The position numbers and the translations under genes are program-made. A stretch of DNA of 64,000 nt, taken from positions 1 through 64,000 of the forward strand of contig JACPIQ010000116.1 of assembly GCA_016188005.1 (NCBI GenBank). The letters are read 5' to 3'. The stretch is from Candidatus Rokuibacteriota bacterium. GTDB taxonomy: Bacteria > Methylomirabilota > Methylomirabilia > Rokubacteriales > CSP1-6. Positions 1-15,406 of the stretch are shown piece by piece (within the stretch, counting starts at the first letter, position 1; every line of letters begins with the position of its first letter). Under the pieces are notes generated by a model. It did no database searches. It saw nothing but the letters and a program-made list of their open reading frames with translations, and was not told the origin of the DNA.

Positions 1-213
1 GCCCCGGCGGTGGCCTGGACGGCCGCCGCCGAGGCGCGGCTCGGGCGCGTCCCGGCGGGCTTCATGCGGGAGCGGGCGCGCCAGGAAATCGAGCGGGCGG
101 CGCGCGCGGCGGGGCTCGACACCATCGAGCTCGGCAGCTGCGAGGAGTGGCTGGCCGCGATCCGCGCCACGATGTGCCAGGGGCGCGGCGGCCACCCGGA
201 GGCCGGGGCGTGA
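1..213 (+). CDS. C-terminal end of a PCP_red-domain protein (5' end outside window)
   Basis: Only the last 70 or so codons are in the window. The reading frame is open from base 1, so the gene starts upstream. The visible part reads as a protochlorophyllide-reductase C-terminal-type domain (PCP_red): an opening tryptophan with WTAAAEARLGRVP, then a helix rich in Arg/Glu (FMRERARQEIERAAR) and AAGLDTI. The same module ends the next protein and the one at 8136-8561. The stop overlaps the GTG start of the radical SAM gene (GTGA at 210-213), so the two are probably translationally coupled. The N-terminal function cannot be seen. Confidence 0.7.
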   Translation, partial: APAVAWTAAAEARLGRVPAGFMRERARQEIERAARAAGLDTIELGSCEEWLAAIRATMCQGRGGHPEAGA

Positions 214-1517
214 CGGCAGGCCCGGGGCGTGAGGCCGTGGGCCCCCGGGACGGTCCCACGGCCTACGCGGTATCGTGGAATCTCACTCGGCGCTGCAACC
301 TGCACTGCGACCACTGCTACATCTCGGCGGGCCCGGGGCCGCGCCCGCCGGACGAGCTGTCCACGGCCGAGTGCCGGCGGGTGATGGACGAGATCGCCGA
401 GGTCAACCCGGACATCTTCCTGATCCTGACTGGCGGTGAGCCGTTGCTGCGACCGGACCTGCCGGAGATCGCCTCGGCGGCCCGGGCCCGCGGCTTCACG
501 GTGGTCGTGGGCACCAACGGGGTGCTGCTGCGGGAGCGGCAGGCGCAGAGCCTCCACGCGGCCGGCGTCCAGGGGGTGAGCCTGTCCCTGGACTCGACGG
601 TGCCCGCTCGGCACGACGCCTTCCGTCGGCGTCCCGGGTCCTGGCAGGGCGCCGTGCGTGCCACCGAGATCTGCCGCGCCGAGGGGCTCGACTTCTCGCT
701 CCACATGTCGGTGACCGAGTGGAATGCCCGGGAGATCCCGGCCATGATCGAGCTGGCGGGCGAGCTCGGGGCGACCGTGCTCAACCTCTTCTTCCTCGTC
801 CGCTGCGGGCGGGGGGAAGGGCTCACCGACATCCCGGCGGCGCAGTACGAGGCGATCCTCACCGACCTCGTGGAGATGGAGCGGGCGGGTGGCCGCCCGG
901 GCGGCCTGCAGGTGCGCACCAAGTGTGCGCCGCAGTACCGGCGCCTCGTCTGGCAGCGGGACAAGGCCTCGCCGCTCCTCGCGGCCTATGCCGAGGGGGC
1001 CTGCCCCGCGGGCAAGCACTACTGCCGCATCACTCCGGAGGGCGATGTGACGCCCTCGCCATACATGCCGCTCTCGGTCGGCAACCTCCGGGAGGGCTCC
1101 TTCGCCGATCTGTGGCGCTCGGCGCCGGTCTTTCAGGCGCTCCGGACGGCACCGCTCCGGGGACGATGCGGAGCGTGCGAGTTCTCGAAGATCTGCGGCG
1201 GCTGCCGCTGCCGCGCGTATGCGGCCTCCGGCGACTATCTGGCCGAGGATCCGGCCTGCGCCTACGAGCCCGGTACCTACGGGGGCGTGCCCGCCGAGGT
1301 GCCTGCCGCCTTCACCTTCGGGCTCGAGGTGTCGCGGGAGCTTGCCTGGAGCGAGGCCGCGACCGCCAGGCTCGAGGCCATCCCCGGCTTCGCCCGCGGG
1401 ATGGTGGTGCAGGCCGTGGAGGCCCACGCCCGGGCCGCGGGGCATTCCGTCGTCACCCCCGAGATGATGGCGGAGGTCCGCCGGCACTGGGGCGGGCGCT
1501 TCGCCCAGCGATCGTAG
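210..1517 (+). CDS. Radical SAM/SPASM protein with C-terminal PCP_red domain
   Basis: Likely radical SAM enzyme of the haem-maturation or peptide-modification type. CNLHCDHC (C29, C33, C36) is the [4Fe-4S]/SAM motif, followed by the LTGGEPLL segment. A cysteine-rich SPASM region late in the protein (CGACEFSKICGGCRC) should bind auxiliary clusters. The last ~60 residues (LAWSEAATARLEAIPGFARG onward) repeat the PCP_red-like module of the preceding protein. GTG at 210 is chosen as start because it overlaps the upstream stop. A longer frame reaches 147 but would lie inside the previous gene. It precedes a bd-type oxidase-like subunit and cytochromes, so a role in haem or cofactor assembly for that complex is plausible. 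Similarity to NirJ/AhbD-type haem enzymes is a family-level guess; the substrate is unknown. Confidence 0.8.
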   Translation: MTAGPGREAVGPRDGPTAYAVSWNLTRRCNLHCDHCYISAGPGPRPPDELSTAECRRVMDEIAEVNPDIFLILTGGEPLLRPDLPEIASAARARGFTVVVGTNGVLLRERQAQSLHAAGVQGVSLSLDSTVPARHDAFRRRPGSWQGAVRATEICRAEGLDFSLHMSVTEWNAREIPAMIELAGELGATVLNLFFLVRCGRGEGLTDIPAAQYEAILTDLVEMERAGGRPGGLQVRTKCAPQYRRLVWQRDKASPLLAAYAEGACPAGKHYCRITPEGDVTPSPYMPLSVGNLREGSFADLWRSAPVFQALRTAPLRGRCGACEFSKICGGCRCRAYAASGDYLAEDPACAYEPGTYGGVPAEVPAAFTFGLEVSRELAWSEAATARLEAIPGFARGMVVQAVEAHARAAGHSVVTPEMMAEVRRHWGGRFAQRS

Positions 1518-1547: not shown

Positions 1548-3356
1548 ATGCGTGTGCACGGTGAGGAGGGCGGCCTGGCGCGCCAGCCGGCCGAGAGCTG
1601 GCGCCTGTACGCCTGGGCGGTGCTGGGGGGCTCGGTGCTGAGCCTCTGCCTGCTGGCGCTCCCGGCCCTGGCGCAGGAGGTGGGGAAGGCCGTGGAGTAC
1701 CGCGCCGTGCCCCTCGTCGGCTCGCGGCTGGCGGTCTGGGCCGTGGCCCAGATCCATCTCAACTTCGCCGCCTTCATCCTCGGCGTGCCCATTTTCGCCG
1801 TCATCATCGAGATCATGGGGTGGGGGACAGGCGAGCAGCGCTACGACTGGCTCGCTCACGAGCTGGTCAAGCTCACCTTCGCCGCCTTCTCGACCACCGC
1901 CCTCCTGGGGGCAGCCCTCCTCTTTCTCCTCATCGGGTACTACCCGAAGGTCTGGACCTACCTGACGGGGATCTTCTTCCCGACCTACTGGGTCTACGTG
2001 CTCCTCTTCTTCCTCGAGACCTTCACCGTCTATCTCTGGTACTACGGCTGGGACTGGCTGTCGGGGCCGCGGAAGGCGATTCACGTGGCCCTCGGGGTCC
2101 TCTCGAACCTCTTCGGCACGGCGATCCTCGTCGTGGCCAACTCCTGGGTGACCTTCATGATCTCCCCGGGCGGCGTGGACGAGTCCGGCGCCCTCAAGAG
2201 CTTCTGGGGGGCCGTGAACAACTTCACCTGGATGCCCATCAACATCCACCGGCTCATCGCCAACATCGTGTTCGGGGGCACCATCTGCGCGGCCTATGCG
2301 GCCGTCCGGTTCCTGTCCGCCAAGAGCGACGAGGAGCGGGCGCGCTACGACTGGATGGGGTACATCGGCAACTTCGTGGCGCTGGCGGCCTTCATCGTGC
2401 TCCCCTTCGCGGGGTACTACCTGGGGCGCGAGATCTACGCCTACAACCAGACCATGGGCATCACCATGATGGGCGGCTTCATGTCCTGGCTCTGGATCAT
2501 CCAGGCGATTCTCATCGGGATCCTCTTCATCGGCTCCAACTACTATCTCTGGCTCGGCATGGAGCGCATTCCGGGCTCCGAGCGCTACCGCAAGTACGTG
2601 CCGTATCTGCTCATGGTCCTGGCCGCCGGTTTCATGGTCTGGGCCACGCCCCGGAGCCTCATCCTCACGCTCGGGGAGGCGCGGGCCATGGGCGGCACCC
2701 ACCACCCGATCCTGGGGCTCCTCGGCGTGATGTCGGCGAAGAATACGGCCGTGAACCTGATGATCCTGACGACCTTCCTGTCATTCGTCTTCTACCGCCG
2801 GGCGAACAAGGTCTCCCAGCGGTCCTGGGCCGGGCTCGGCATGGCAGTGCAGTGGGTGGCGATCGGGGTGGCGGCGGGGCTCGTCACCTTCTACGGGGTG
2901 TACGGCTACTTCGTCGAGTCCATCGTCCGGATCGGCTTTTCGGTGTACCAGGTGGCGGCCGTGCTCGGGGCCATCGTCGTGATCATGGCCATCGACATCC
3001 CCATGTTCCGGGGGGCGCGGACGACAGGGGAGATCCGGTGGGGCAGCATCGCGCCCCGGTCGCAGTATGTGTTGATCCTGCTGGCGGTGACCTTCACCTG
3101 GCTGATGGGGCTGATGGGCTTTGCCCGCTCCGGGATCCGCCAGCACTGGCATGTCTACGGCGTGCTCCGTGACACCTCAGCGGAGGCGGTGACGCCGGCG
3201 CTGGGCTACGCCTCGACCGTGATCACGGGGGTCACCATCGTGTTCTTCGCGCTGGTGATGTTCATCTTCTGGCTGGGAGGGCTTGGCGACAAGGGCAAGG
3301 CGGCGGCCCACGCGGCGCCGGCCATGGCCGGCGGTTCGGCTCGGGAGGCCCGGTGA
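1548..3356 (+). CDS. Cytochrome bd-like oxidase subunit I (CydA superfamily)
   Basis: Polytopic membrane protein of about 602 aa with many long hydrophobic segments. Features fit the CydA fold: His in AQIHLNF (about residue 70, haem b595-like ligand), Glu in FFLETF (about 157, equivalent to E. coli Glu107), His in NIHRL (about 234), and IRQHW near 531 in place of the usual GRQPW. The glutamate eight residues before the conserved one (E. coli Glu99) appears to be valine. There is no CydB-like gene next to it. The following genes encode c-type cytochromes, which suggests a c-fed or c-linked bd-family complex rather than a classic quinol oxidase. ATG 1548 is preferred over GTG 1521 because AGGAG at 1534-1538 is well spaced. 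Its stop overlaps the next start (TGATG). Confidence 0.75.
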   Translation: MRVHGEEGGLARQPAESWRLYAWAVLGGSVLSLCLLALPALAQEVGKAVEYRAVPLVGSRLAVWAVAQIHLNFAAFILGVPIFAVIIEIMGWGTGEQRYDWLAHELVKLTFAAFSTTALLGAALLFLLIGYYPKVWTYLTGIFFPTYWVYVLLFFLETFTVYLWYYGWDWLSGPRKAIHVALGVLSNLFGTAILVVANSWVTFMISPGGVDESGALKSFWGAVNNFTWMPINIHRLIANIVFGGTICAAYAAVRFLSAKSDEERARYDWMGYIGNFVALAAFIVLPFAGYYLGREIYAYNQTMGITMMGGFMSWLWIIQAILIGILFIGSNYYLWLGMERIPGSERYRKYVPYLLMVLAAGFMVWATPRSLILTLGEARAMGGTHHPILGLLGVMSAKNTAVNLMILTTFLSFVFYRRANKVSQRSWAGLGMAVQWVAIGVAAGLVTFYGVYGYFVESIVRIGFSVYQVAAVLGAIVVIMAIDIPMFRGARTTGEIRWGSIAPRSQYVLILLAVTFTWLMGLMGFARSGIRQHWHVYGVLRDTSAEAVTPALGYASTVITGVTIVFFALVMFIFWLGGLGDKGKAAAHAAPAMAGGSAREAR

Positions 3357-4186
3357 TGCAGCTGCCGGTGCCGGTGAAGGTCGGCGTGTTCGCGCTCGCG
3401 GTGATGGGGGCCTACACCTACTATGCGAACTCCATCCCGCAGATCCAGTCCAAGCCCCCGGAGGAGCTGTCCCTGGAGGGGGGAAAGGTCACCCCACAGC
3501 AGCTGGTCACGGCCGGAGAGAAGCTCTTCAAGGAGAAGGGCACCTGCGAGATCTGCCACAAGATCGGCCAGAAGGGGACGCGGGCGCCGGACCTGGCCGG
3601 CGTGGGCGCTGCCGCGGCCAAGCGGCGTTCCGGCGTGAGCGCGAAGGGCTATCTGGTGGAGTCGCTGCTGGATCCCGGCGCCTTCCTCGTGGAGGGGTAC
3701 CCGAATATCATGCCGAAAGTCGACCGGCCACCCATCGGGCTCAACCGCTCGGAGTTGTGGGCGCTGACGGCCTTTCTGCAGTCCCAGGGGGGGACGGTGG
3801 ACGTGACGCTGGACGACATCCCGAAGACGGCGGGGGCCCAGGCCTCAGGCGGCGGGGCGCCGGCGGCGGCACTGACGCTGCCGGGCGATGCCAAGGCGGG
3901 GCAGGCGGTGTTTGCGGGCAAGGGCGCCTGCATTGCCTGCCACAAGGCCGGCGCCCTCGGGGCCTCGCCCGTGGGCCCCGACCTGACTCAGCTCGCGCGG
4001 ATCCAGACGCCCGAGTACATCATGGGCAAGATCCTGAACCCGGCCGGCATGGGGACGGTGGCCGGATATCCGCCCGGGGTCATGCCATCGACCTTTGGCC
4101 AGACGCTCACGGCCCGCGAGTACCTCGACCTGGTCTCGTTCCTCCTCACCCTCAAGGGTGACGGGGCCGCGACGGCGAAGAGATAG
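3356..4186 (+). CDS. Membrane-anchored dihaem cytochrome c
   Basis: 276-aa protein with an N-terminal hydrophobic segment (VKVGVFALAVMGAYTYYA) acting as uncleaved anchor or signal. Two class I cytochrome c domains follow, with CEICH at about residue 64 and CIACH at about 192. Downstream methionines (MPKVDRPP, GVMPSTFG) are likely axial ligands. The linker is rich in Ala and Gly. It sits directly behind the bd-like subunit (TGATG overlap) and 4 nt before the trihaem fusion gene, so it probably delivers electrons to, or takes them from, that complex on the periplasmic side. GTG 3353 is an alternative start. Confidence 0.85.
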   Translation: MQLPVPVKVGVFALAVMGAYTYYANSIPQIQSKPPEELSLEGGKVTPQQLVTAGEKLFKEKGTCEICHKIGQKGTRAPDLAGVGAAAAKRRSGVSAKGYLVESLLDPGAFLVEGYPNIMPKVDRPPIGLNRSELWALTAFLQSQGGTVDVTLDDIPKTAGAQASGGGAPAAALTLPGDAKAGQAVFAGKGACIACHKAGALGASPVGPDLTQLARIQTPEYIMGKILNPAGMGTVAGYPPGVMPSTFGQTLTAREYLDLVSFLLTLKGDGAATAKR

Positions 4187-4190
4187 GCGC

Positions 4191-6446
4191 ATGGGCCTCT
4201 TCCGCTCGAGGCTGTTCCAGTCGGTGCTGGTCCTCGTCGTGACCTTCGCCGTGTTCCGGTTCGCCATCCGGCCACCGGCGCCCTGGAGCGTGATCACCCT
4301 GTACATGGGCGTCGTCCTCCTGGCGCTCCTGGTCTACGTCTCCTCCGACGGGGACTCCTGGCGGGCCTTCGTGGCGCCGCTGCGCGCCCTGCTGGTGGAC
4401 GACTCTCTGATGCCGATCCGCGTGGTGGCCATGATCGTGCTGCCGCTCGGGCTCGGCTACTACGCCTACAGCCAGGCGGCGGCCACCGTGGAGGCCCCGC
4501 CCGAGCTGCGGGCCGTGCACCCCGCGCCGCCGGCGTCGATCTCGTTCCGCGGCAAGCCGCTGGACATCCAGGGGCTCGACAACCCGCTCCGGAAGGACGC
4601 GGCCGGCCTCAAGCAGCACGCGGCCGAAGGGGGGAGCATCTACATCAAGAACTGCATGTACTGCCACGGCGACAATCTGGACGGCGCCGGCCCCTTCGCG
4701 CACGCCTTCAACCCGCCGCCGGCCAACTTCCAGGACCCCGGGACCATAGCGATGCTGCAGGAGGCCTACCTCTTCTGGCGCATCGCCAAGGGCGGCCCGG
4801 GGCTGCCGAAGGAGTCCACGCCCTGGAACTCCGTCATGCCGGCCTGGGAGGACCGGCTCAGCGCGGAGGAGATCTGGAAGGTCATCGTGTATCTCTACGA
4901 CGCCACGGGGTATCAGCCGCGGCGCTGGGAGGAGGGCGGCGAGCCCAAGCACTCGCGGCTCGCGGTTCCCGTGAAGCTCGCGGGGCTTCCCGGGATGGGC
5001 CTGCTGACCCCGCGGGCAGTCGAGGCCCAGCAGGTGGGCGATCCGGCCCAGGGCAAGGCCGTGTATGAGAAGAAGTGCCTGCTCTGCCACGGGGAGAAGG
5101 GCGACGGCGCCGGACCCGGCGCGCCGCTGCTCGAGCCGCGGCCGCGCGACTTCACCAAGGGCAAGTTCAAGATCCGCACGAGCGCCTCGGGGCAGGTCCC
5201 CACCGACGCCGATCTCTTCCGCATCATCACGGAGGGCATGCCGGGAACCACCATGCCCGGCTGGAAGGGGCTGTCGGAGAAGGACCGCTGGAGCCTGGTC
5301 GCCTACCTCAAGACCTTTGCGCCCGAGGCCTTCAAGGAGGCGCCGAAGCGGGCCGTGCTGCCGAAGGAGGTGGCCGCATCGAAGGAGTCGCTGGCCCGGG
5401 GCAAGGAGATGTTCGAGGCCATCGAGTGCCACAAGTGCCACGGGGCCGGCGGGCGGGGCGATGGGCCCTCGGCCGCGGAGCTGCGGGATGATTGGAAGCA
5501 CCCGGTGCGGCCCGCCAACCTGACGAAGCCGTGGAACTTCCGCGGTGGCAGCAGCACGAAGGAGATCGCCACGCGGCTGGCCACCGGGCTCATGGGCACG
5601 CCGATGCCGACCTTCATCGACAGCGTGGAGAAACCCGAGGACATCTGGCATGTGGCCAATTACGTGAAGGCGCTCGGGACGGACAAGCCGGCCTTCGCCA
5701 CGATGCTGACAGTCCGGGCCGTCGCGGGCCCGATCCCGGACGACCCGGCGGCCGCCTTCTGGAGGCAGCAGCCGGCGGCGGTCTTCCCGCTGGCGGGGCA
5801 AGTGATCGTGGAGCCGCGCAACGTCAATCCCTCCATCGACACGGTCACGGTGCGCGCCGTCTACACCGGCACCGAGATCGCCTTCCACCTCAGCTGGGAC
5901 GATCCGACGAAGTCCATGCCCGATGCCACGGCCAAGACCTTCGCCGACCAGATCGCGCTGCAGCTGGCGGCCCGGCCCGCCGAGGGCAGCGAGCGCCCCT
6001 ACGTGCTCATGGGCGACGGATCGAGCCCCGTCTACCTGCTCCGCTGGGCGTCGGACGCCGGCGTGGGGGAGGCCAGTGCCTCGGGACTCGGCACGCTCGC
6101 TCCGCAGACGGGTCAGGCCGTCCAGGCCACGGGCGGGGCGGTCTTTGCCGACGGCCAGTACCGGCTGGTGATCAAGCGGCCGCGCGTCACCAAGGATCCC
6201 GGGGATCCCGCGTTCCCGGTCGGGCGGTTCCTCTCCGTGGCGGTCATGGCCTGGGACGGCGGGGCCGGAGAAACGGAGAGCAAGCTGTCGTTCTCGTCGT
6301 GGTATTACCTCCGCCTGGAGGAGCCAGGCTCAACCACCCCCTACCTCATCCCCCCGCTGGTGGTCCTCGTCGCCGCCGCGCTGGAGCTGCTCGTGGTCCG
6401 GCGCGCGCGGGGGCGGGCTTCCGCGGAGCCAAGGAGACCCAACTGA
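4191..6446 (+). CDS. Trihaem cytochrome c fused to ethylbenzene-dehydrogenase-type haem domain
   Basis: 751-aa membrane-bound multidomain protein. Two N-terminal hydrophobic segments are followed by three cytochrome c domains: CMYCH (~155), CLLCH (~296) and CHKCH (~413). Residues from about 510 to 715 resemble the EB_dh/cytochrome b558-566 subunit A family, a b-type haem-binding fold seen in DMSO-reductase-family gamma subunits and archaeal cytochromes. A C-terminal transmembrane helix (YLIPPLVVLVAAALELLVV) follows. The combination would form a periplasmic electron wire attached to the bd-like complex. The start is ATG 4191, just after the upstream stop; the frame is open further upstream but that part overlaps the dihaem gene. 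The stop overlaps the next start (ATGA at 6446). Confidence 0.8.
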   Translation: MGLFRSRLFQSVLVLVVTFAVFRFAIRPPAPWSVITLYMGVVLLALLVYVSSDGDSWRAFVAPLRALLVDDSLMPIRVVAMIVLPLGLGYYAYSQAAATVEAPPELRAVHPAPPASISFRGKPLDIQGLDNPLRKDAAGLKQHAAEGGSIYIKNCMYCHGDNLDGAGPFAHAFNPPPANFQDPGTIAMLQEAYLFWRIAKGGPGLPKESTPWNSVMPAWEDRLSAEEIWKVIVYLYDATGYQPRRWEEGGEPKHSRLAVPVKLAGLPGMGLLTPRAVEAQQVGDPAQGKAVYEKKCLLCHGEKGDGAGPGAPLLEPRPRDFTKGKFKIRTSASGQVPTDADLFRIITEGMPGTTMPGWKGLSEKDRWSLVAYLKTFAPEAFKEAPKRAVLPKEVAASKESLARGKEMFEAIECHKCHGAGGRGDGPSAAELRDDWKHPVRPANLTKPWNFRGGSSTKEIATRLATGLMGTPMPTFIDSVEKPEDIWHVANYVKALGTDKPAFATMLTVRAVAGPIPDDPAAAFWRQQPAAVFPLAGQVIVEPRNVNPSIDTVTVRAVYTGTEIAFHLSWDDPTKSMPDATAKTFADQIALQLAARPAEGSERPYVLMGDGSSPVYLLRWASDAGVGEASASGLGTLAPQTGQAVQATGGAVFADGQYRLVIKRPRVTKDPGDPAFPVGRFLSVAVMAWDGGAGETESKLSFSSWYYLRLEEPGSTTPYLIPPLVVLVAAALELLVVRRARGRASAEPRRPN

Positions 6447-7153
6447 TGCGTCATTGGACAGCTGTGCTATGCGCGTTCGGCCTGGCCGCCGCCCTGGTCT
6501 GGGCCGGCTCGACCCCCGTCACCGCCCAGGGGGCGGGCTCCATCGTGGGCGAGGTGAAGTTCTCGGGGACCCCGCCAGCCGCCAAGAACCTCAAGGTCGA
6601 CAAGGACTCCGAGGTGTGCGGCAGCGACAAGCCGAGCGAGGAGCTCGTGGTGGGCGCCAGCAAGGGGATCAAGAACGCCGTGGTGTCGCTGGCCGGCGCC
6701 AAGGGCCCGGCGCCCAAGCCCGCTCAGAAGCCGGCGCTGGACCAGAAGAAGTGCCACTTCGCCCCGCACGTCCTGGTGGTCCCGGCGGGGGCCGAGGTGG
6801 ACATCCTCAACTCCGACGGCATCCTGCACAACCTCCACACCTTCTCCGCGGCCAACTCCGCGATCAACAAGGCCCAGCCCAAGTTCAAGAAGGTGATGAC
6901 CGAGAAGTTCGACAAGCCCGAGGTCATCAAGGTACAGTGCGACGTGCACAGCTGGATGTCGGCCTGGATCGTCGTGGCCGACCACCCCTACTACAGCGTC
7001 ACCGACGAGGGCGGCACCTTCAAGCTCGACAACGTGCCCCCCGGCAAGCACAAGGTGGAGGTCTGGCACGAGAGTCTGGGCAAGCTGAGCCGGGAGGTCG
7101 AGGTCAAGGCCGGCGCCCCCACGAAGGTCACCTTCGAGCTGAGCAAGAAGTAG
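6446..7153 (+). CDS. Exported cupredoxin-like blue copper protein
   Basis: 235 aa with a signal peptide (AVLCAFGLAAALVWAG then TPVTAQG). The central domain shows a plastocyanin-like copper site: His128 (HNLHTF), then Cys165, His168 and Met171 in QCDVHSWM. The tail (FKLDNVPPGKHKVEVWHE) resembles carboxypeptidase-regulatory or carbohydrate-binding beta-sandwich repeats, a combination known from methylamine-utilisation-type plastocyanins. It probably shuttles electrons in the periplasm for the neighbouring haem complex. ATG overlaps the previous stop by one base, indicating co-translation. A 36-nt gap-spanning inverted repeat lies just downstream. Confidence 0.8.
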   Translation: MRHWTAVLCAFGLAAALVWAGSTPVTAQGAGSIVGEVKFSGTPPAAKNLKVDKDSEVCGSDKPSEELVVGASKGIKNAVVSLAGAKGPAPKPAQKPALDQKKCHFAPHVLVVPAGAEVDILNSDGILHNLHTFSAANSAINKAQPKFKKVMTEKFDKPEVIKVQCDVHSWMSAWIVVADHPYYSVTDEGGTFKLDNVPPGKHKVEVWHESLGKLSREVEVKAGAPTKVTFELSKK

Positions 7154-7242: not shown

Positions 7243-8139
7243 ATGCTCAAACGGTATCGCGACATCGCGGGAGACGGCGGCTCCAATATCGTGGGACAGG
7301 TGGAGGCGCTCACCGGCCGGGTGCGGGCCCGGATGGCCCGGGTCCGCCGACGGCTGGCCGTCACCAGCGGAAAGGGTGGTGTGGGCAAGAGCATGCTCAC
7401 CACCAATCTGGCGATCCTGCTGGCGGCTGATGGATGGCGGGTCGGCGTGCTCGACGCCGACCTCAACGGCCCCTGTCTCGCGCGCATGCTCGGGATCCGT
7501 GGCCCGGCCCTCCGCCTCTCGCCCGAGGGCCTCCACCCCGCCGAAGGGCCGCTCGGCATCAAGGTGCTCTCCATGGATCTCCTCCTTCGTGAGGGGCCCG
7601 TGCCGCTCGTCTGGGAAGCTCCGACCCAGGACCACAGCTTCGTCTGGCGTGACACCATGGAAGCGACCGCGCTTCGGGAGCTGCTGGCCGACACGGTCTG
7701 GGGAGATCTCGACGTGCTCCTGCTCGACCTGCCACCGGGGGCGCCGAGGTTGCCGGCCCTTGCCGGACTCCTCGCCGACCTCGACGGAGCCCTGGTGGTC
7801 ACCATTCCGTCGGAGGTGTCCCGGCTCGTCGTCGAGCGGGCCGTGGAGCTGGCGCGAGCCCATGCCGTGAGACTGCTCGGGCTCGTGGAGAACATGGCGG
7901 GCCACCTCTGCCCGCACTGTGGCGCCGTCGGGGATCTCTTCGTCCGCGATGACGGCCCACTCGAGGTTCCCGGCCTTCCGACCCTGGCCAGGATCCCCTT
8001 CGACCCACGAATCGCCCACTGCGCGGACCGCGGACGCCCGTACGCCGTGGAGCATGCCGACACCGCGGCGGGCCTGGCCTTGCGCGCGCTGGCCACCCAG
8101 GTGCGGACGCTGCTCTCTCCGGCGGAGGCGGCCCGGTGA
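7243..8139 (+). CDS. Mrp/NBP35-family P-loop ATPase (Fe-S carrier-like)
   Basis: 298 aa. A deviant Walker A motif (SGKGGVGKS, about residues 43-51) is followed by LDADLNGP, DVLLLDLPPGAP and the CPHC pair near residue 223, all typical of the ApbC/Mrp/NBP35 group that carries and transfers iron-sulphur clusters. A role in supplying clusters to the radical SAM or PCP_red proteins of this cluster is an inference from location. ATG 7243 is chosen because GGAGG (7233-7237) lies 5 nt upstream; the open frame extending back to 6454 is antisense-free but overlaps the cupredoxin gene in another frame. The stop overlaps the next start as GTGA. Confidence 0.85.
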   Translation: MLKRYRDIAGDGGSNIVGQVEALTGRVRARMARVRRRLAVTSGKGGVGKSMLTTNLAILLAADGWRVGVLDADLNGPCLARMLGIRGPALRLSPEGLHPAEGPLGIKVLSMDLLLREGPVPLVWEAPTQDHSFVWRDTMEATALRELLADTVWGDLDVLLLDLPPGAPRLPALAGLLADLDGALVVTIPSEVSRLVVERAVELARAHAVRLLGLVENMAGHLCPHCGAVGDLFVRDDGPLEVPGLPTLARIPFDPRIAHCADRGRPYAVEHADTAAGLALRALATQVRTLLSPAEAAR

Positions 8140-8561
8140 AGCTTCTCTGCGTCGCATGCAACGAGCCCATGCAGGTCAGTTCGGTAGAGGGCCCCGAGGA
8201 GGGATCCGTCAGCGTCAGCTTCGGATGTGCGACCTGCGGCCAGCGAGTCGCCCTGCTCACCAATCCCCTGGAGACCCAGCTCGTCCGGTCCCTCGGAGTG
8301 AAGATCGGAGGACAGAGCGTGGGTCACGAGCCGCTCGAGGTGGTCCGGGCGAGCCTGGCGCCGCAGAGCCAGGGCGCGCTCCACGCCGCGGAAGGGGAGG
8401 CCGTGGTCTGGACCGAGGAGGCCAACGCGCGCCTCCAGCGCCTGCCGCCGATGGCCCGGCCCATGGCGCGCACGGCCATCGCCCGGTACGCGCGGGAGCA
8501 CGGCGTCACGACGGTGACCCCAGAGCTGATGGACGAGTACCGGGCGCATGCTGGTTTCTGA
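8136..8561 (+). CDS. Zinc-ribbon protein with C-terminal PCP_red domain
   Basis: 141 aa. Two CxxC pairs at the N terminus (CVAC and CATC) should form a zinc ribbon or bind a cluster. The C-terminal half starts at VWTEEANARLQRLPPMAR and carries the same PCP_red-type pattern as the ends of the proteins at 1-213 and 210-1517 (Trp, RLxxxP, then Arg-rich helix and HGVTTVTPE). No enzymatic motif is visible. It is translationally coupled (GTGA) to the Mrp-type ATPase, suggesting a partner or substrate of cluster delivery. The function is unknown. Confidence 0.7.
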   Translation: MKLLCVACNEPMQVSSVEGPEEGSVSVSFGCATCGQRVALLTNPLETQLVRSLGVKIGGQSVGHEPLEVVRASLAPQSQGALHAAEGEAVVWTEEANARLQRLPPMARPMARTAIARYAREHGVTTVTPELMDEYRAHAGF

Positions 8562-9783: not shown

Positions 9784-11331
9784 TCACCCCTGACGCCGGC
9801 TCGCGCGCCACTCCGCCAGCTCCCTGGCGACAACGGTGGCGCGGCAGTCGGGACAGACGCCGTGGCTGAAGGTGGCCTGCGAGCGCTCCCCGACGTAGGT
9901 CTCGATCTGCTCCCAGTAGTTCCGATCGTTGCGAACCTTCTTGCAGTACGCGCAGATCGGCAGCAGCCCGTGAAGCTGCTTGACCTGGCCCAGCGCCATC
10001 TCGGCCTCCCGCCGCGCCTGCACCGCCGCCTCGTACAGCCGCGCGTTCTCGATCGCGATCCCCGCCTGGTCGGCCAGCCCCTGCGCCACCGTGACCGCGT
10101 CGTCGTCGAACCGATGGCCGCGCGGGCCAAAGACGATGAGGGTGCCCAGCACCCGCGTCCCCATCCTCACCGGCACGCACATGAGGGCCCCGGTCCGGGC
10201 CGCCTGCGCCTGCGCCCGGTGCGCCGGCACCAGATAGGGATCCGCCGCCGTGTCCGCCGTCACGTACGGCCGGCCCGTCGCCGCCACCCTCCCGCTGATC
10301 GACTCCCCGATCCGGATCCGGTCCCTCGCCATCACCTCCAGCGCCCCCGCCGTCGCCCCCACCCGCCCCAGCCACTCCCCCTCCGCCAGCCGGAACCCCG
10401 CCTCCCCCTCGAAAATCTCCGCCGCCGCCTTCGCAATCGACCCCAGCAGCTCCGGCAGGTCCAGCTCCGCCGTCAGCCGACGCGACACCGCCACCAGCGT
10501 CCCCACCCGCTGCCGCCGCCCCTCGGACTCCTCCAGCAACCGCGACACCGACGCGTTCGAGGCCTCCAGCTCCCCCCTGGCCGCCTCCAGCGCTGCCGTC
10601 CGATCCACCACCCGCTGCTCCAGCCCCTGGTTCAGCCGGAGCAGCTCCCCCTCCGCCCTCTGCCGCCCCGCCTCCGCCCGGATCTGGATCCGGTGCGAGA
10701 TGCGGACCACCCAGAAGAGGGACAGGTACAGCAAGAGACCCCCCAGCACCGTCGTGGCCCAGATGGTGTTCCGGGACTTCCGGATGTCCTCGTAGAGCCG
10801 TTCCGGGACCTTGTAGACCTCCAGCACCCCGATCACGGAGCGGGGGTCCTCGGGGGCGAAGATCGGCACATACACTTCCGCCAGCGTGGAGAAGAACTCA
10901 CGCTCCTGCACGTTCTCGGGCTTCTGCAGGCTCTTGAGCTGAACCCTGACCTGCCCCCGCAGGGCAGCCACGAGATCGGAGTTGTCGGCAAACCTTCGGC
11001 CGATGAGACCCTCGTCTTCGGCCCAGATCACGACGGCGTCACGGTTCCACACCTTGACGCGAACGACCTCGGGAAGCTTGTAGAGCGGGCTCAGGGCCGA
11101 GCGGATCCGCGCCCGGTCCAGCCGAAGCGCGGGATCGATGAAGAGCTGCTCCATCCCGTGATCGCTGGCCTCGTAACGGACGAACTGGGCGGTGGTCTGC
11201 CACTCGCTGGCCCGCATGTGACGCGCGAGCACATCCGAGGTCACCCATCCGAGTGCACCCATCAAGGCCAGCACGCACCCCAGGCTCAGCACCGAGAAGC
11301 GAGTCAGGAGGCTCCAGGCGGGAAGGCGCAT
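9784..11331 (-). CDS. Membrane sensor with GAF domain and Cys-rich C-terminal tail, no kinase domain
   Basis: 515 aa. N-terminal TM helix, a periplasmic sensing segment (about residues 30-180), a second TM helix (LGGLLLYLSLFWVV), a coiled-coil stretch, then a cytoplasmic GAF domain (about 280-440). The tail contains ICAYCKKVRNDRNYWEQIE and HGVCPDC, a short Cys-pair/His module known at the end of many bacterial GAF/PAS proteins. No histidine kinase, GGDEF or phosphatase domain is present, so output is unclear. ATG 11331 is chosen because GGAG lies about 8 nt upstream; 11361 is the longer alternative. It is convergent with the binding protein at 8548-9756. A candidate sigma-70 promoter precedes it. 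Confidence 0.75.
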   Translation of the reverse strand: MRLPAWSLLTRFSVLSLGCVLALMGALGWVTSDVLARHMRASEWQTTAQFVRYEASDHGMEQLFIDPALRLDRARIRSALSPLYKLPEVVRVKVWNRDAVVIWAEDEGLIGRRFADNSDLVAALRGQVRVQLKSLQKPENVQEREFFSTLAEVYVPIFAPEDPRSVIGVLEVYKVPERLYEDIRKSRNTIWATTVLGGLLLYLSLFWVVRISHRIQIRAEAGRQRAEGELLRLNQGLEQRVVDRTAALEAARGELEASNASVSRLLEESEGRRQRVGTLVAVSRRLTAELDLPELLGSIAKAAAEIFEGEAGFRLAEGEWLGRVGATAGALEVMARDRIRIGESISGRVAATGRPYVTADTAADPYLVPAHRAQAQAARTGALMCVPVRMGTRVLGTLIVFGPRGHRFDDDAVTVAQGLADQAGIAIENARLYEAAVQARREAEMALGQVKQLHGLLPICAYCKKVRNDRNYWEQIETYVGERSQATFSHGVCPDCRATVVARELAEWRASRRQG

Positions 11332-11394
11332 CACAAGGTCTCCATGGTTCGGGCAGACCATCCACCTGGCGGCGGGCGGCCCCCTCAGTGTTCC

Positions 11395-11581: not shown

Positions 11582-13366
11582 TCAGCCGGCCTTGCCGGGT
11601 GCTGGCGAATCCCCTTCGCCGAACGAGCGCTCCAGGTCGACCATGGTCGTGCTCCCGATGTAAGGGCTCTCGGCAACCCGCCGCAGGTCGGGCAGGCGCC
11701 TGACCAGCGCCTCGATCTTCCTGATCTCCTCCTCGGCCGCGGCCACGGTCCGGGCCCGCTCCGGGAGTCCGAGGTCCTCCTGCTTCAGCACCTGGATGGC
11801 CCCAAGGATCCCGGTGAGCGGGTTGAGAATCGCGTGGTGGAGACCAACGACCACCTGGCCGATCGCCGCGAGGCGCTCCTTTTCCACCAGCTGCGCCTGG
11901 GCATCGAGGAGCGCCTGGTTCGAGTCCTTGAGACGCGCCTCCATCTCGACCATCTCCGTGATGTCCCGCGAGACCTCGAGGATCTGGTAGACCTGCCCCG
12001 ACGCGTCGCGCAGCGGCGCGGCGACGACATCCGCGTAGGTCGTCCGGCCACCCGGCCCGGGCTGGGCGAGCACGCCCCGCTCCACCTGCCCGGTGTAGAG
12101 CGTTCGCACGGCGGGGCAGCCGTCGCAGGCCTCGCGCGGCGAGCCCGTCAGCTCGAAGCAGGTCCTGCCGACAGCCCCAGCACCCGCGTGAGCCGTCGCC
12201 GCAGCGTTCATCCACACCACGTGCAGCTCGCGGTCGACGATCACCAGCCGATCGGCGATCCCGGCCAGGATGGCTGCCAGCCGCTCATGCGCCTCGCGGA
12301 TGTCGCGGAACAGCTCCACGTTGGCAAGGGCTATGGCCGCCTCGTGGAGCATGATCTCCAGCGTCTGGAGCGCCGCCGGCGCCGGCGCGACACTGCCAGG
12401 CAGGAGGTGGCCCGCGAACAGGTGCGCCGGGCCGCGCTGGGGGAAGACCGGGATGACCACCAGACCCTCCTCAGCCTGGTGGGCCCGCCCGGCGAGGGCC
12501 TCGGCGACCAGCGCTCCCGGAGGGGGGAGCACCTCGGCGCCCGGCGGCCAGGACGCGAGCCGCGTGAGCCCGCCACCGGCCTCGGCCCTGTAAAGCGAGG
12601 CGTCGGCGAGACGCAGTCCGCTGGCGGCACTCTCGACCACGTGGGCCGCCACCTGGGCGAGATCCAGCGGGCGGAGCACCGACTCGGTGAACTGCTGCAG
12701 CAGCGTCAGCTCCTCGTTCTGCCGCTCGAGCCGCTGGATGGCCCGCTCCTCGCTGGCCGAGGCCCGCCATACCACGAGGCCCAGGGCGCCGTAGAGGAAC
12801 AGCCCCATGGCCCCCGCGACGCCCCAGATCAGCCGCGAGGTGCGCTGCAGGTCCAGCATGACCGCCGTCATGTCCTTGTACGTCTCGATCACGCCGGCCG
12901 CCTGGGAAGTGCCCGGGAAGGTGATCGGAACATACGCCTCCGCCACGTACCGCGGGTTCTTCTCGAAGACGTGCTCCGAACGCTTCGGCTCCTCCAGGAC
13001 CGTCGTCACCCGGCCCCGGAGAGCTGCGAGCAGGTAGGCATTGTCGGGAAAGGCCAGGCCGATGAGCCGGGGCTCGTTCGACCAGATGATGCGTCCTGTC
13101 CGGTCATATGCCTTGATCCTGAACACGCCGGGAAGCCCCTCGAGGAAGGTCGCGAAGCCCTCGTGCGCTGAGGGATCGGAGGCGTTCTCGAAGTTCAGCG
13201 CGGTGAGGTGCTGGTGCGCCTGGCTCTGCACGATCTCGGCTGTTTGCGCTTCCTCCTGGGAGAGGACGTAGCGCTCGAAGAAGGCGCCGACGAGCAACCC
13301 GGCGGCGACGACGACCACCACCACCAGCCCCGCGCTGACGATCAGGTAACCCTTGAAGCGGCTCAT
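11582..13366 (-). CDS. Membrane sensor, histidine-kinase-like but lacking the ATPase domain
   Basis: 594 aa. TM helix (LIVSAGLVVVVVVAAGLLVG), a periplasmic domain similar in pattern to that of the neighbouring GAF sensor (VFRIKAYDRTGRIIWSNEP, GVIETYKD), a second TM, a GAF-like region and a PAS domain with CFELTGSPREACDGCPAV. The end has a dimerisation/phosphoacceptor-like segment (KERLAAIGQVVVGLHHAILN, PLTGI) with a candidate phospho-His, but the protein stops about 75 residues later with no N, G1 or G2 ATP-binding boxes. It may be an adaptor, a phosphoacceptor for another kinase, or a truncated kinase. ATG 13366 is chosen because upstream sequence in frame overlaps the cytochrome gene. Confidence 0.75.
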   Translation of the reverse strand: MSRFKGYLIVSAGLVVVVVVAAGLLVGAFFERYVLSQEEAQTAEIVQSQAHQHLTALNFENASDPSAHEGFATFLEGLPGVFRIKAYDRTGRIIWSNEPRLIGLAFPDNAYLLAALRGRVTTVLEEPKRSEHVFEKNPRYVAEAYVPITFPGTSQAAGVIETYKDMTAVMLDLQRTSRLIWGVAGAMGLFLYGALGLVVWRASASEERAIQRLERQNEELTLLQQFTESVLRPLDLAQVAAHVVESAASGLRLADASLYRAEAGGGLTRLASWPPGAEVLPPPGALVAEALAGRAHQAEEGLVVIPVFPQRGPAHLFAGHLLPGSVAPAPAALQTLEIMLHEAAIALANVELFRDIREAHERLAAILAGIADRLVIVDRELHVVWMNAAATAHAGAGAVGRTCFELTGSPREACDGCPAVRTLYTGQVERGVLAQPGPGGRTTYADVVAAPLRDASGQVYQILEVSRDITEMVEMEARLKDSNQALLDAQAQLVEKERLAAIGQVVVGLHHAILNPLTGILGAIQVLKQEDLGLPERARTVAAAEEEIRKIEALVRRLPDLRRVAESPYIGSTTMVDLERSFGEGDSPAPGKAG

Positions 13367-13430
13367 TCGCCTTTCCCGCATCCCTGATGATGCTCCAGCC
13401 TGCGTCCTGGCACAACGCCAGCGGCGCCCT

Positions 13431-14438
13431 CTACATTCCCACCTTGTCCCGGTGGCAGTTTCGACAGAGGCCGAGCCAACTGACGGCGCCGAAGTTCCAC
13501 AGCTTCGGCGCCGGCGCGGCATGGGGGTTGTGACAGCTGGCGCAGGACAGCTCCCGCTTCGGCCGGTTTGGATCGGGCCGGCCGCGGGTGGGATGCCCCT
13601 GGCCACTTGGCCCCCAGTTGATCACGTGGCGCCCGTCCGCCTTCTCGAAGTGACAGGTCGTGCAGAGGTTCCAGGCAGCCTTCTTGAGAAAGAACTGGTT
13701 GTCCGTGCCGTGCGGGTTGTGGCAGATCGTGCACCGGCCGGTGGAGGTGGGCCCGTGCTGGTAGCGGCTGCCGTAGAAGCGCTCCTTCTGCTCGTCGTGG
13801 CAGGAGAAGCAGAGCGGCATGACGGGGTCCGGGGTCGCGTACCGCTGAGGCGACGCAGTCGGGTCATGGCATTTCGTGCAGGCCCACAGCGCCGCCGGGC
13901 CGTGCACTTCCTTGGCCTTCGTCAAGCGGGCGTGGCACGAGTAACAGGTGGACTGGTCGGGGCTGGCGGGCCCGGTGTCACCGGGCACCGCCTGGGTGCG
14001 GTGACACTCGTGGCACATCGCCTCGTTCCGCGCCTGGTGAAACGGCACGCGCCTGAAGCCCTTCGGCGGCTCCGAGGCCGAGAGGATCGCGGCAGAGTAA
14101 TAGACTGCGCGAGCCTCGCGCACGGCCGGCTTGCCTGGAGGGCTGGATTCCACCTCGACCACGTTCTGGCCGGCAGCGAGCTGGGCGCTCCAGTGCAGGA
14201 CACCGCCCCCGGCCGGGCGCGGCTGGTGGGCCGCGGGGCCGAGGTCGGTCCCGTTGAGCCGCGCCCGTACGGCGGAAGGCGCCACTCCCCCGTCGATCCC
14301 CACGATCACGTGGATGTTCCCACCCCCCGACACGACCGAGTCCGCCGCCGGGGCGTGCACGCGGACCCCCTGGCCGGCGGCGGCCGGAGCCCAGGCCACG
14401 CTGAGCACGATCACGAGCCCGGGAATCGAGCGCCTCAT
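13431..14438 (-). CDS. Exported octahaem cytochrome c (doubled CxxCH type)
   Basis: 335 aa with a signal peptide (LVIVLSVAWAPAAAGQG). The first ~110 residues form a beta-rich, Ig-like segment (VRVHAPAADSVVSGGGNIHV). Eight CxxCH motifs follow: CHECH, CYSCH, CTKCH, CFSCH, CTICH, CTTCH, CASCH and CRNCH, with frequent CHDP/CHNPH context typical of the doubled CxxCH family. Expected in the periplasm or outer surface as part of an electron chain. The start overlaps the preceding thioredoxin-fold gene (ATGA, 14435-14438), so it is part of the long minus-strand operon. Confidence 0.9.
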   Translation of the reverse strand: MRRSIPGLVIVLSVAWAPAAAGQGVRVHAPAADSVVSGGGNIHVIVGIDGGVAPSAVRARLNGTDLGPAAHQPRPAGGGVLHWSAQLAAGQNVVEVESSPPGKPAVREARAVYYSAAILSASEPPKGFRRVPFHQARNEAMCHECHRTQAVPGDTGPASPDQSTCYSCHARLTKAKEVHGPAALWACTKCHDPTASPQRYATPDPVMPLCFSCHDEQKERFYGSRYQHGPTSTGRCTICHNPHGTDNQFFLKKAAWNLCTTCHFEKADGRHVINWGPSGQGHPTRGRPDPNRPKRELSCASCHNPHAAPAPKLWNFGAVSWLGLCRNCHRDKVGM

Positions 14439-15406
14439 TTCCTTCCTTGGAGCAGTTTCAAGAACGCCCACCGATACCGGGAGACGGCGCGGGCGGCATC
14501 GCCGCGCGCCTCGTACGCGCGTCCGAGCTCGTAGTAGCCACGGACAGGCTCCGGGTTGAGCATCACCGCCTCTTCGAGCAGGCGGATGCCCTCGTCGACC
14601 TGGCCGAGCCGGATACGCGCGATGCCGACGCCGACGCGCGCGCCCGGCGAGGTCGGGTTCTTCGCGAGCACGAACTCGAACTCCCGCAGCGCCTGAGCCG
14701 CTTCGTTCGTGTCGAGGCGGGCGTAGCCGAGCCCGAGGTGGGCCTGGGTGAGGTCTGGCTGGAGCGCCAGGGCCCTCGCCAGCTCGCGCGCCGCTTCCTC
14801 GTACCGCCGCTCCGACGCGAGCGCCGTGCCTTGCCTGTACGCGGCCTGCGCCGCCTCGGCGTCTCGCCCGTGCACCTCGCCGACGCTGACCAGGCGTGCC
14901 GTCACGTCTGCATCGGAGATCTCGCCCAGCGCCCGAAGGGTGTAGGCCTCGACGAGCCGGCGGTAGTTGCTGTTGCGGCTCGGCACATACGCCTTCAGAA
15001 CTCCTCGAGCGTCGACCACCGCAGTGCTGGGAAACACGATCACCCCGAACGCGTCAGACGCCTGCCGGTTCCTGTCCGTCGCCGCATCGAGGGGCGGTCG
15101 CGGCACGCGCCCGGCGCCGGATCCGGCCTCCGCGAGGGCGACGACCGCCACCCCCTTCGCGGAGAGCGCCGCCGCGAGCGCTTCGAGATCGGCCAGCGCT
15201 TCCTCCGAGAACACCTGCCCGGGCCGCCAGAACAGAAGGACCATCGGGCGCCCTGGCGCTGGCACCGCGACGCCCCGGCCGCCGGCGCCGTCGAGCGCGA
15301 GCGCGGGGACAGGGCTGTCCACGGGGACGTTCCGGAAGCCGAGCGCCGGACCCGCCAGGCCCAGCGTGGCCAGCACCGCGATCAGGAACGCGCGCAGGTG
15401 TCTCAT
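14435..15406 (-). CDS. Exported thioredoxin-fold (TlpA/AhpC-like) protein with TPR tail, no CxxC
   Basis: 323 aa. Signal peptide (LRAFLIAVLATLGLAGPALG), then an AhpC/TlpA-like fold: VPVDSPVPALALDGAGG, PMVLLFWRPGQVFSEEALAD and VFPSTAVVDARG. The position of the redox CxxC holds RPGQVFS, so no thiol-disulphide activity is expected. Residues from about 185 onwards are TPR repeats (ALALQPDLTQAHLGLGYARL, AVMLNPEPVRGYYELGRAYE). It may be a scaffold or assembly factor for the multihaem proteins encoded on either side. A second protein of the same design lies two genes upstream. Confidence 0.75.
   Translation of the reverse strand: MRHLRAFLIAVLATLGLAGPALGFRNVPVDSPVPALALDGAGGRGVAVPAPGRPMVLLFWRPGQVFSEEALADLEALAAALSAKGVAVVALAEAGSGAGRVPRPPLDAATDRNRQASDAFGVIVFPSTAVVDARGVLKAYVPSRNSNYRRLVEAYTLRALGEISDADVTARLVSVGEVHGRDAEAAQAAYRQGTALASERRYEEAARELARALALQPDLTQAHLGLGYARLDTNEAAQALREFEFVLAKNPTSPGARVGVGIARIRLGQVDEGIRLLEEAVMLNPEPVRGYYELGRAYEARGDAARAVSRYRWAFLKLLQGRK

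Follow-up and report, generated by a model that had tools for sequence, protein, structure and literature searches.

The first 64,000 nucleotides of contig C116 (hereafter the window), from the 5.37 Mb, 98% complete genome of a Rokubacteria bacterium from soil or the subsurface, encode a membrane protein related to cytochrome bd subunit CydA, together with a dihaem cytochrome c, a trihaem cytochrome c carrying an EB_dh domain and a copper protein (Table 1). We found that this cluster is very probably a Rokubacteria member of the already described cytochrome c-linked bd-like family (OR-N), because it has the same gene set as the cluster of Nitrospina, Nitrospira and anammox bacteria and Anammoxibacter copies fall within its clade. 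The new point is that clusters of the window's type, hereafter A-type, are tied to the operon of the aa3-type cytochrome c oxidase in relatives from the Rokubacteria, Gemmatimonadota and Acidobacteria. Our favoured but tentative reading, to which we give a probability of roughly 0.42, is that the complex is an electron-transfer partner of that oxidase, complex III-like, with a role analogous to that of alternative complex III (ACIII). Judging from its residues and subunits, it is not a canonical quinol oxidase.

The bd-like protein, with a signal-like N-terminus and about 13 further helices, matched Pfam Cyt_bd_oxida_I (PF01654) at 2.3e-15 (56.5 bits, cut-off 26.2), and its nearest relatives were other Rokubacteria proteins with identities of up to 85-86%. 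A plain phmmer search against PDB gave no match; a profile of 22 relatives matched the solved CydA structures over the first ~200 residues only (best 1.6e-15). The AlphaFold (AF2) model, with a mean pLDDT of 73, scored Z values of 26-29 against CydA structures over ~350 residues (rmsd 3.8-4.5), indicating that the CydA fold is present, and of 18.6-21 against ActC/ActF of ACIII. In a profile-profile alignment to Escherichia coli CydA, H70, E157 and H234 were equivalent to H19, E107 and H186, with H179 at the position of H126. The H186 equivalent was kept in 43 out of 43 family members and the H19 equivalent in 41 out of 43, the remaining two being Acidobacteria sequences (L064 and L065) with a Lys at this position. 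The first-pass annotation, made from the sequence of the window, had recognised CydA landmarks and a GRQPW motif altered to IRQHW; fold and haem histidines bear out the former, and the motif does read GIRQHW.

The canonical quinol residues were not restored by alignment. The positions of K252 and E257 are occupied by G304 and G309, both invariant in the 22 relatives, and predicted helices at 313-338, 351-365 and 395-418 stand in place of the Q-loop. The conserved Glu that had been described as changed to Val is E99, which corresponds to V149 if counted without gaps and to the invariant Y150 in the profile alignment with its gap, so that a single gap decides between the two. E445 corresponds to L522 or to R527/S528, a mapping less sure than those in the N-terminal half, since the alignment to the C-terminal half of canonical CydA is weak. 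At none of these candidate positions for E99 or E445 did any of the 43 family sequences carry a Glu. Moreover, no CydB (PF02322) match was obtained anywhere in the genome, in a search whose control was positive in 10 out of 14 known genomes. A canonical CydAB was thus ruled out by the lack of both CydB and the quinol residues. In the phylogenetic tree, whose tips included Anammoxibacter copies and not the named Nitrospira and Nitrospina OR-N sequences, the bd-like protein, the Anammoxibacter copies and the other members formed a clade separated from canonical CydA with 100/100 support. A bd-family complex linked to c-type electron carriers, as had been proposed at first pass, is therefore the best reading of this separate clade, with glycines at the quinol positions, CydB not found, and c-type and type-1 copper partners.

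These partners were examined in the 80 bd-like relatives, some of whose loci are cut by contig ends. The dihaem cytochrome was a neighbour in 77 of them, the trihaem protein in 73 and the copper protein in 53, so that the three partners named at first pass in place of CydB accompany nearly all relatives. The four genes were present at the coordinates first given for them, and since their ends abut or share a few bases, a single operon is very likely. In the dihaem cytochrome, the CXXCH motifs and Met ligands were kept in 75-85 of 86 homologues. The trihaem protein matched Pfam EB_dh (1.4e-17) and, below the model cut-off, TIGR03477 (type II DMSO reductase gamma, 3e-33), as well as Kuenenia NxrC (7b04_C) and, over its second and third haems, the dihaem cytochrome of PDB 6h5l (6h5l_B, 1e-49). 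Within its EB_dh domain M607 was kept in 58 out of 80 sequences and no Lys was conserved; a haem b in this domain is at most a possibility. In the copper protein, H128, C165, H168 and M171, a type-1 copper set, were each kept in 58 out of 60 homologues; Pfam gave no cupredoxin domain, matching CarboxypepD_reg only. The cluster is joined differently in other lineages: in other phyla (L047, L048, L157) two proteins take the place of the trihaem one, a monohaem cytochrome c that has membrane helices and another of dihaem-EB_dh type (alternative NxrC), and in Anammoxibacter and one Acidobacterium a single protein combines the bd-like subunit with the dihaem cytochrome.

In Nitrospina, Nitrospira and anammox bacteria a conserved cluster has been described that encodes a bd-like oxidase, cytochromes c with two and with three haems (or one), an alternative NxrC and cupredoxin-like proteins (PMC3578206, PMC6606698, PMC8026999). 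The family was named OR-N by Murali et al. 2021 and, in the passages citing that work in PMC10839748 and PMC12342949, is regarded as comprising putative cytochrome c-oxidising O2 reductases. The window cluster shares with the Nitrospira (bd-like_3, alt_NxrC_2), Nitrospina and anammox clusters both these neighbours and a bd-like subunit with a CydA-like N-terminal half, conserved haem histidines, no quinol residues, extra helices for the Q-loop and no CydB. It differs in that the monohaem cytochrome and the dihaem alternative NxrC are fused into one trihaem-EB_dh protein, in the adjoining gene for a NirJ/AhbD-like radical SAM protein, and in that window-type relatives are linked to an aa3 oxidase operon and not to nitrite oxidoreductase (NXR). 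With canonical cytochrome bd (CydAB, qOR) it has in common the CydA fold, the equivalents of H19, E107, H126 and H186 and the RQxW remnant, but it lacks CydB, K252/E257 and E99/E445 and has c-type and copper partners instead. It resembles ACIII in its likeness to the ActC/ActF fold, its c-type haem subunits and a position before oxygen reductase genes, whereas its membrane subunit belongs to the CydA family and has conserved His; neither an ActB-like Fe-S subunit nor a pentahaem ActA was found among the cluster genes by Pfam and NCBIfam. The EB_dh domain and the dihaem module recall Kuenenia NxrC (7b04_C) and the 6h5l protein, although here the modules are joined in one membrane-anchored trihaem protein whose EB_dh domain has no conserved Lys.

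The genome carries a second bd-like cluster on contig C30 (L008:8527-15479), where dihaem, trihaem-EB_dh and copper genes are again present. Its bd-like protein is 54% and 45% identical to that of the window in two pieces and falls in a clade of its own (100/100), which we call C30-type. This second cluster is preceded by a gene for a nitrosocyanin/halocyanin-like cupredoxin and followed by PCP_red proteins. The two types also differ at one site, which reads mostly GG[TSA]HHP in the A-type and GGQFHP in the C30-type; these motifs could not be mapped to the published residues of the Nitrospira variant for which haem-copper-like copper ligands have been claimed, and no such claim is made here.

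It is the A-type that accompanies cytochrome c oxidase genes. In most Rokubacteria and Gemmatimonadota loci that were long enough, COX1, mostly preceded by COX2 (CoxB-CoxA), lay on the same strand just past the copper gene, a position also seen in Tectomicrobia (L034) and in the two Acidobacteria L064 and L065; in L255 and L049 the gene run continued through CtaA or further Cox subunits, the subunit names beyond COX1 and CtaA coming from reading the sequences. The L064 cluster, with its Lys in place of H19, sits between two haem-copper oxidase gene sets. In a scan of the phylum, where bd-like genes that were not retrieved were counted as A-type by their match pattern, 24 of the 58 A-type genes but none of the 9 C30-type genes lay 6.1-6.8 kb upstream of a COX1 on the same strand. 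The chance of such a spacing is ~0.3% per gene; since the copies are kin by descent, this is to be taken as conserved linkage and not as independent events.

The loss of E99 and E445, the change of H19 to Lys in one lineage, the presence in an anammox genome and the position before an oxidase operon in relatives lend some support to the suspicion raised at first pass, that the bd-like protein may not be a quinol-oxygen reductase at all. With the canonical quinol site and two acidic residues near the O2 site lost, and with the complex present in an anammox genome, neither a canonical quinol oxidase nor an obligatory reduction of O2 fits well. A complex exchanging electrons with the cytochrome c pool does fit, given the periplasmic relay of c-type haems and copper and the aa3 oxidase encoded behind it in relatives. 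In such a complex the subunits would assemble as one membrane unit, electrons would move between the b haems of the bd-like subunit and the periplasmic chain of c haems and copper, and the c haems and cupredoxin would pass them to the aa3-type oxidase; in lineages with NXR the chain might work backwards, fed by nitrite or another high-potential donor.

ACIII genes tend to stand before oxidase genes (PMC12342949). A survey of Gemmatimonadota found a caa3 oxidase in 74% of genomes, bc1 petB in 23% and ACIII in <10%, and raised the possibility of novel complex III modules (PMC9426454). For the complex III not recovered in most of these genomes, the bd-like cluster offers a specific candidate. In a wider form of the proposal, the family would be a third kind of complex III, a CydA-fold oxidoreductase between quinol (or quinone) and cytochrome c/cupredoxin that pairs with the aa3 oxidase in Gemmatimonadota and Rokubacteria and is reversed in nitrite oxidisers and anammox bacteria, with a radical SAM protein that may modify its haem. 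Taken with all these parts, we regard this as rather unlikely. That one of the two paralogue types is tied to an oxidase and the other to NXR separates their roles and argues for a common electron-transfer core over an oxidase.

Several observations weigh against a partnership with the aa3 oxidase, and some of them favour instead the OR-N proposal that the bd-like subunit is itself the terminal oxidase, taking electrons from cytochrome c or cupredoxin and reducing O2 with cytoplasmic protons. The weightiest is that Nitrospira and some Nitrospinae are without haem-copper oxidases, and a bd-like protein has been proposed as their terminal oxidase (PMC6606698, PMC8026999). Likewise, in one 97% complete genome of 2.3 Mb (G085; L252) the A-type bd-like gene and NxrA were found, and neither COX1 nor a match to canonical CydA. 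The linkage was not seen in the window genome, whose COX1 genes lie on other contigs, and no quinone site could be identified, the canonical one being absent. The CydA fold, the conserved equivalents of H19, H186 and E107 and the view of OR-N in PMC10839748 are further points for a terminal oxidase. Yet all 43 sequences are without a Glu at the E99 and E445 positions, two of them have replaced H19, many genomes encode the bd-like cluster in one run with an aa3 oxidase, and three bd-like copies occur in one anammox genome, which make a terminal oxidase somewhat doubtful. A decayed canonical bd oxidase without function, which the altered motifs might suggest, is scarcely credible in view of the open frames, the conserved operon and the ~140 columns that do not vary across relatives (51-86% identity) from many phyla.

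The EB_dh (alternative NxrC) domain raises the question of whether the complex is rather the membrane anchor and electron acceptor of NXR. The genome does encode an NXR: a protein on contig C8 matched Kuenenia NxrA (1e-254), genes for NxrB and a TorD-like chaperone adjoin it (L133:5075-11394, minus strand), and no EB_dh gene was seen beside them. In four genomes (G095, G096, G005 and G075) two-haem proteins resembling the dihaem-EB_dh type stand directly upstream of nxrA, and physical linkage to nxr was observed for the A-type cluster in G005 and for the C30-type cluster in G075. The C30-type indeed tracks NXR, which occurred in 7/9 genomes with this type against 25/86 (p 0.006, a value made optimistic by the relatedness of the genomes). 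No such association holds for the entire bd-like family: among 95 genomes, 22 had both and 37 the bd-like gene only (p 0.38), so that co-occurrence gives no support to the view that the window's A-type serves in general as an anchor specific to NXR. Since, in addition, members from the Gemmatimonadota and Acidobacteria are found beside cox genes, we consider the anchor improbable and retain the aa3-oxidase partner as our reading.

The NXR of contig C8 belongs to a subgroup ~42% identical to the commoner NXR of the phylum and has a conserved C-terminal extension (residues 1068-1178). In Anammoxibacter (L157, L158; G095 contig C140), a run of ~25 kb comprises genes for a cytochrome b, an octahaem protein, two tandem C30-type clusters, a tetrahaem protein, a Usp-PCP_red protein and a radical SAM-PCP_red protein. 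Directly upstream of the C30-type cluster of G075 (contig C238, L233:79-4510) are genes for a Rieske/molybdopterin oxidoreductase, like arsenite oxidase or iodate reductase, and a dihaem peroxidase-like protein, with NXR downstream.

Table 1 Genes of the bd-like cluster and its flanks in the window.
Feature	Coordinates	Strand	Basis
bd-like subunit, CydA fold, A-type, 602 aa	1548..3356	+	Pfam PF01654, PDB profile match, AF2 model, tree, residues
Dihaem cytochrome c, N-terminal membrane segment, CXXCH at residues 64 and 192 (CEICH, CIACH)	3356..4186	+	Pfam Cytochrom_C, conserved ligands
Trihaem cytochrome c with C-terminal EB_dh / type II DMSO reductase gamma-like domain; CXXCH at residues 155, 296 and 413 (CMYCH, CLLCH, CHKCH)	4191..6446	+	Pfam EB_dh, TIGR03477, 6h5l_B, 7b04_C
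Secreted copper protein, cupredoxin-like (H128, C165, H168, M171), CarboxypepD_reg tail	6446..7153	+	Ligand conservation; Pfam CarboxypepD_reg only
Radical SAM/SPASM protein, NirJ/AhbD kind, C-terminal PCP_red; possible maturation gene	147..1517	+	Pfam, NCBIfam
Mrp/ApbC-like ATPase, probable Fe-S carrier; membership of the system inferred	7249..8139	+	Pfam ParA 5.5e-62
Small protein with C-terminal PCP_red domain; membership of the system inferred	8136..8561	+	Pfam PCP_red 2.5e-15

The radical SAM gene ends 30 bp upstream of the bd-like gene, and its frame is open to the start of the contig, leaving its true start unsure. The protein matched Radical_SAM (4e-28), SPASM and PCP_red (4.5e-12) in Pfam, and the NirJ2 (304 bits) and AhbD (296 bits) models of NCBIfam, both below the cut-off of 500. 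Genes of this kind were near the bd-like gene in 38 of the 80 relatives, those for the Mrp/ApbC-like ATPase in 31 and those for the small PCP_red protein in 44, and the Anammoxibacter radical SAM protein has the identical radical SAM-SPASM-PCP_red architecture. Proteins of the NirJ/AhbD kind act on haem precursors, and NCBIfam matches show that PCP_red otherwise forms the C-terminal domain of protochlorophyllide reductase subunit B. As a ferrochelatase is encoded in the genome, ordinary haem b is unlikely to need the AhbD-like radical SAM protein. Our guess is that it might make or insert a special or modified haem for the bd-like complex.

Near bd-like clusters of several phyla, PCP_red domains are found repeatedly, carried by radical SAM proteins, universal stress proteins and small proteins (window 147-1517 and 7249-8561; L158:4017-7265; L049:4544-7926). 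A paralogue of the window radical SAM protein, 42% identical, is encoded elsewhere in this genome (G000, C123:5340-6422; L198), ~8 kb from the COX1 at C123:14411. Further along the window, a gene on the minus strand (13431-14471) encodes a multihaem protein with paired CXXCH motifs that matched a DmsE-like decahaem model below its cut-off; adjoining it are genes for two sensor-like proteins with similar N-terminal halves (9784-11361 and 11582-13606, minus strand).

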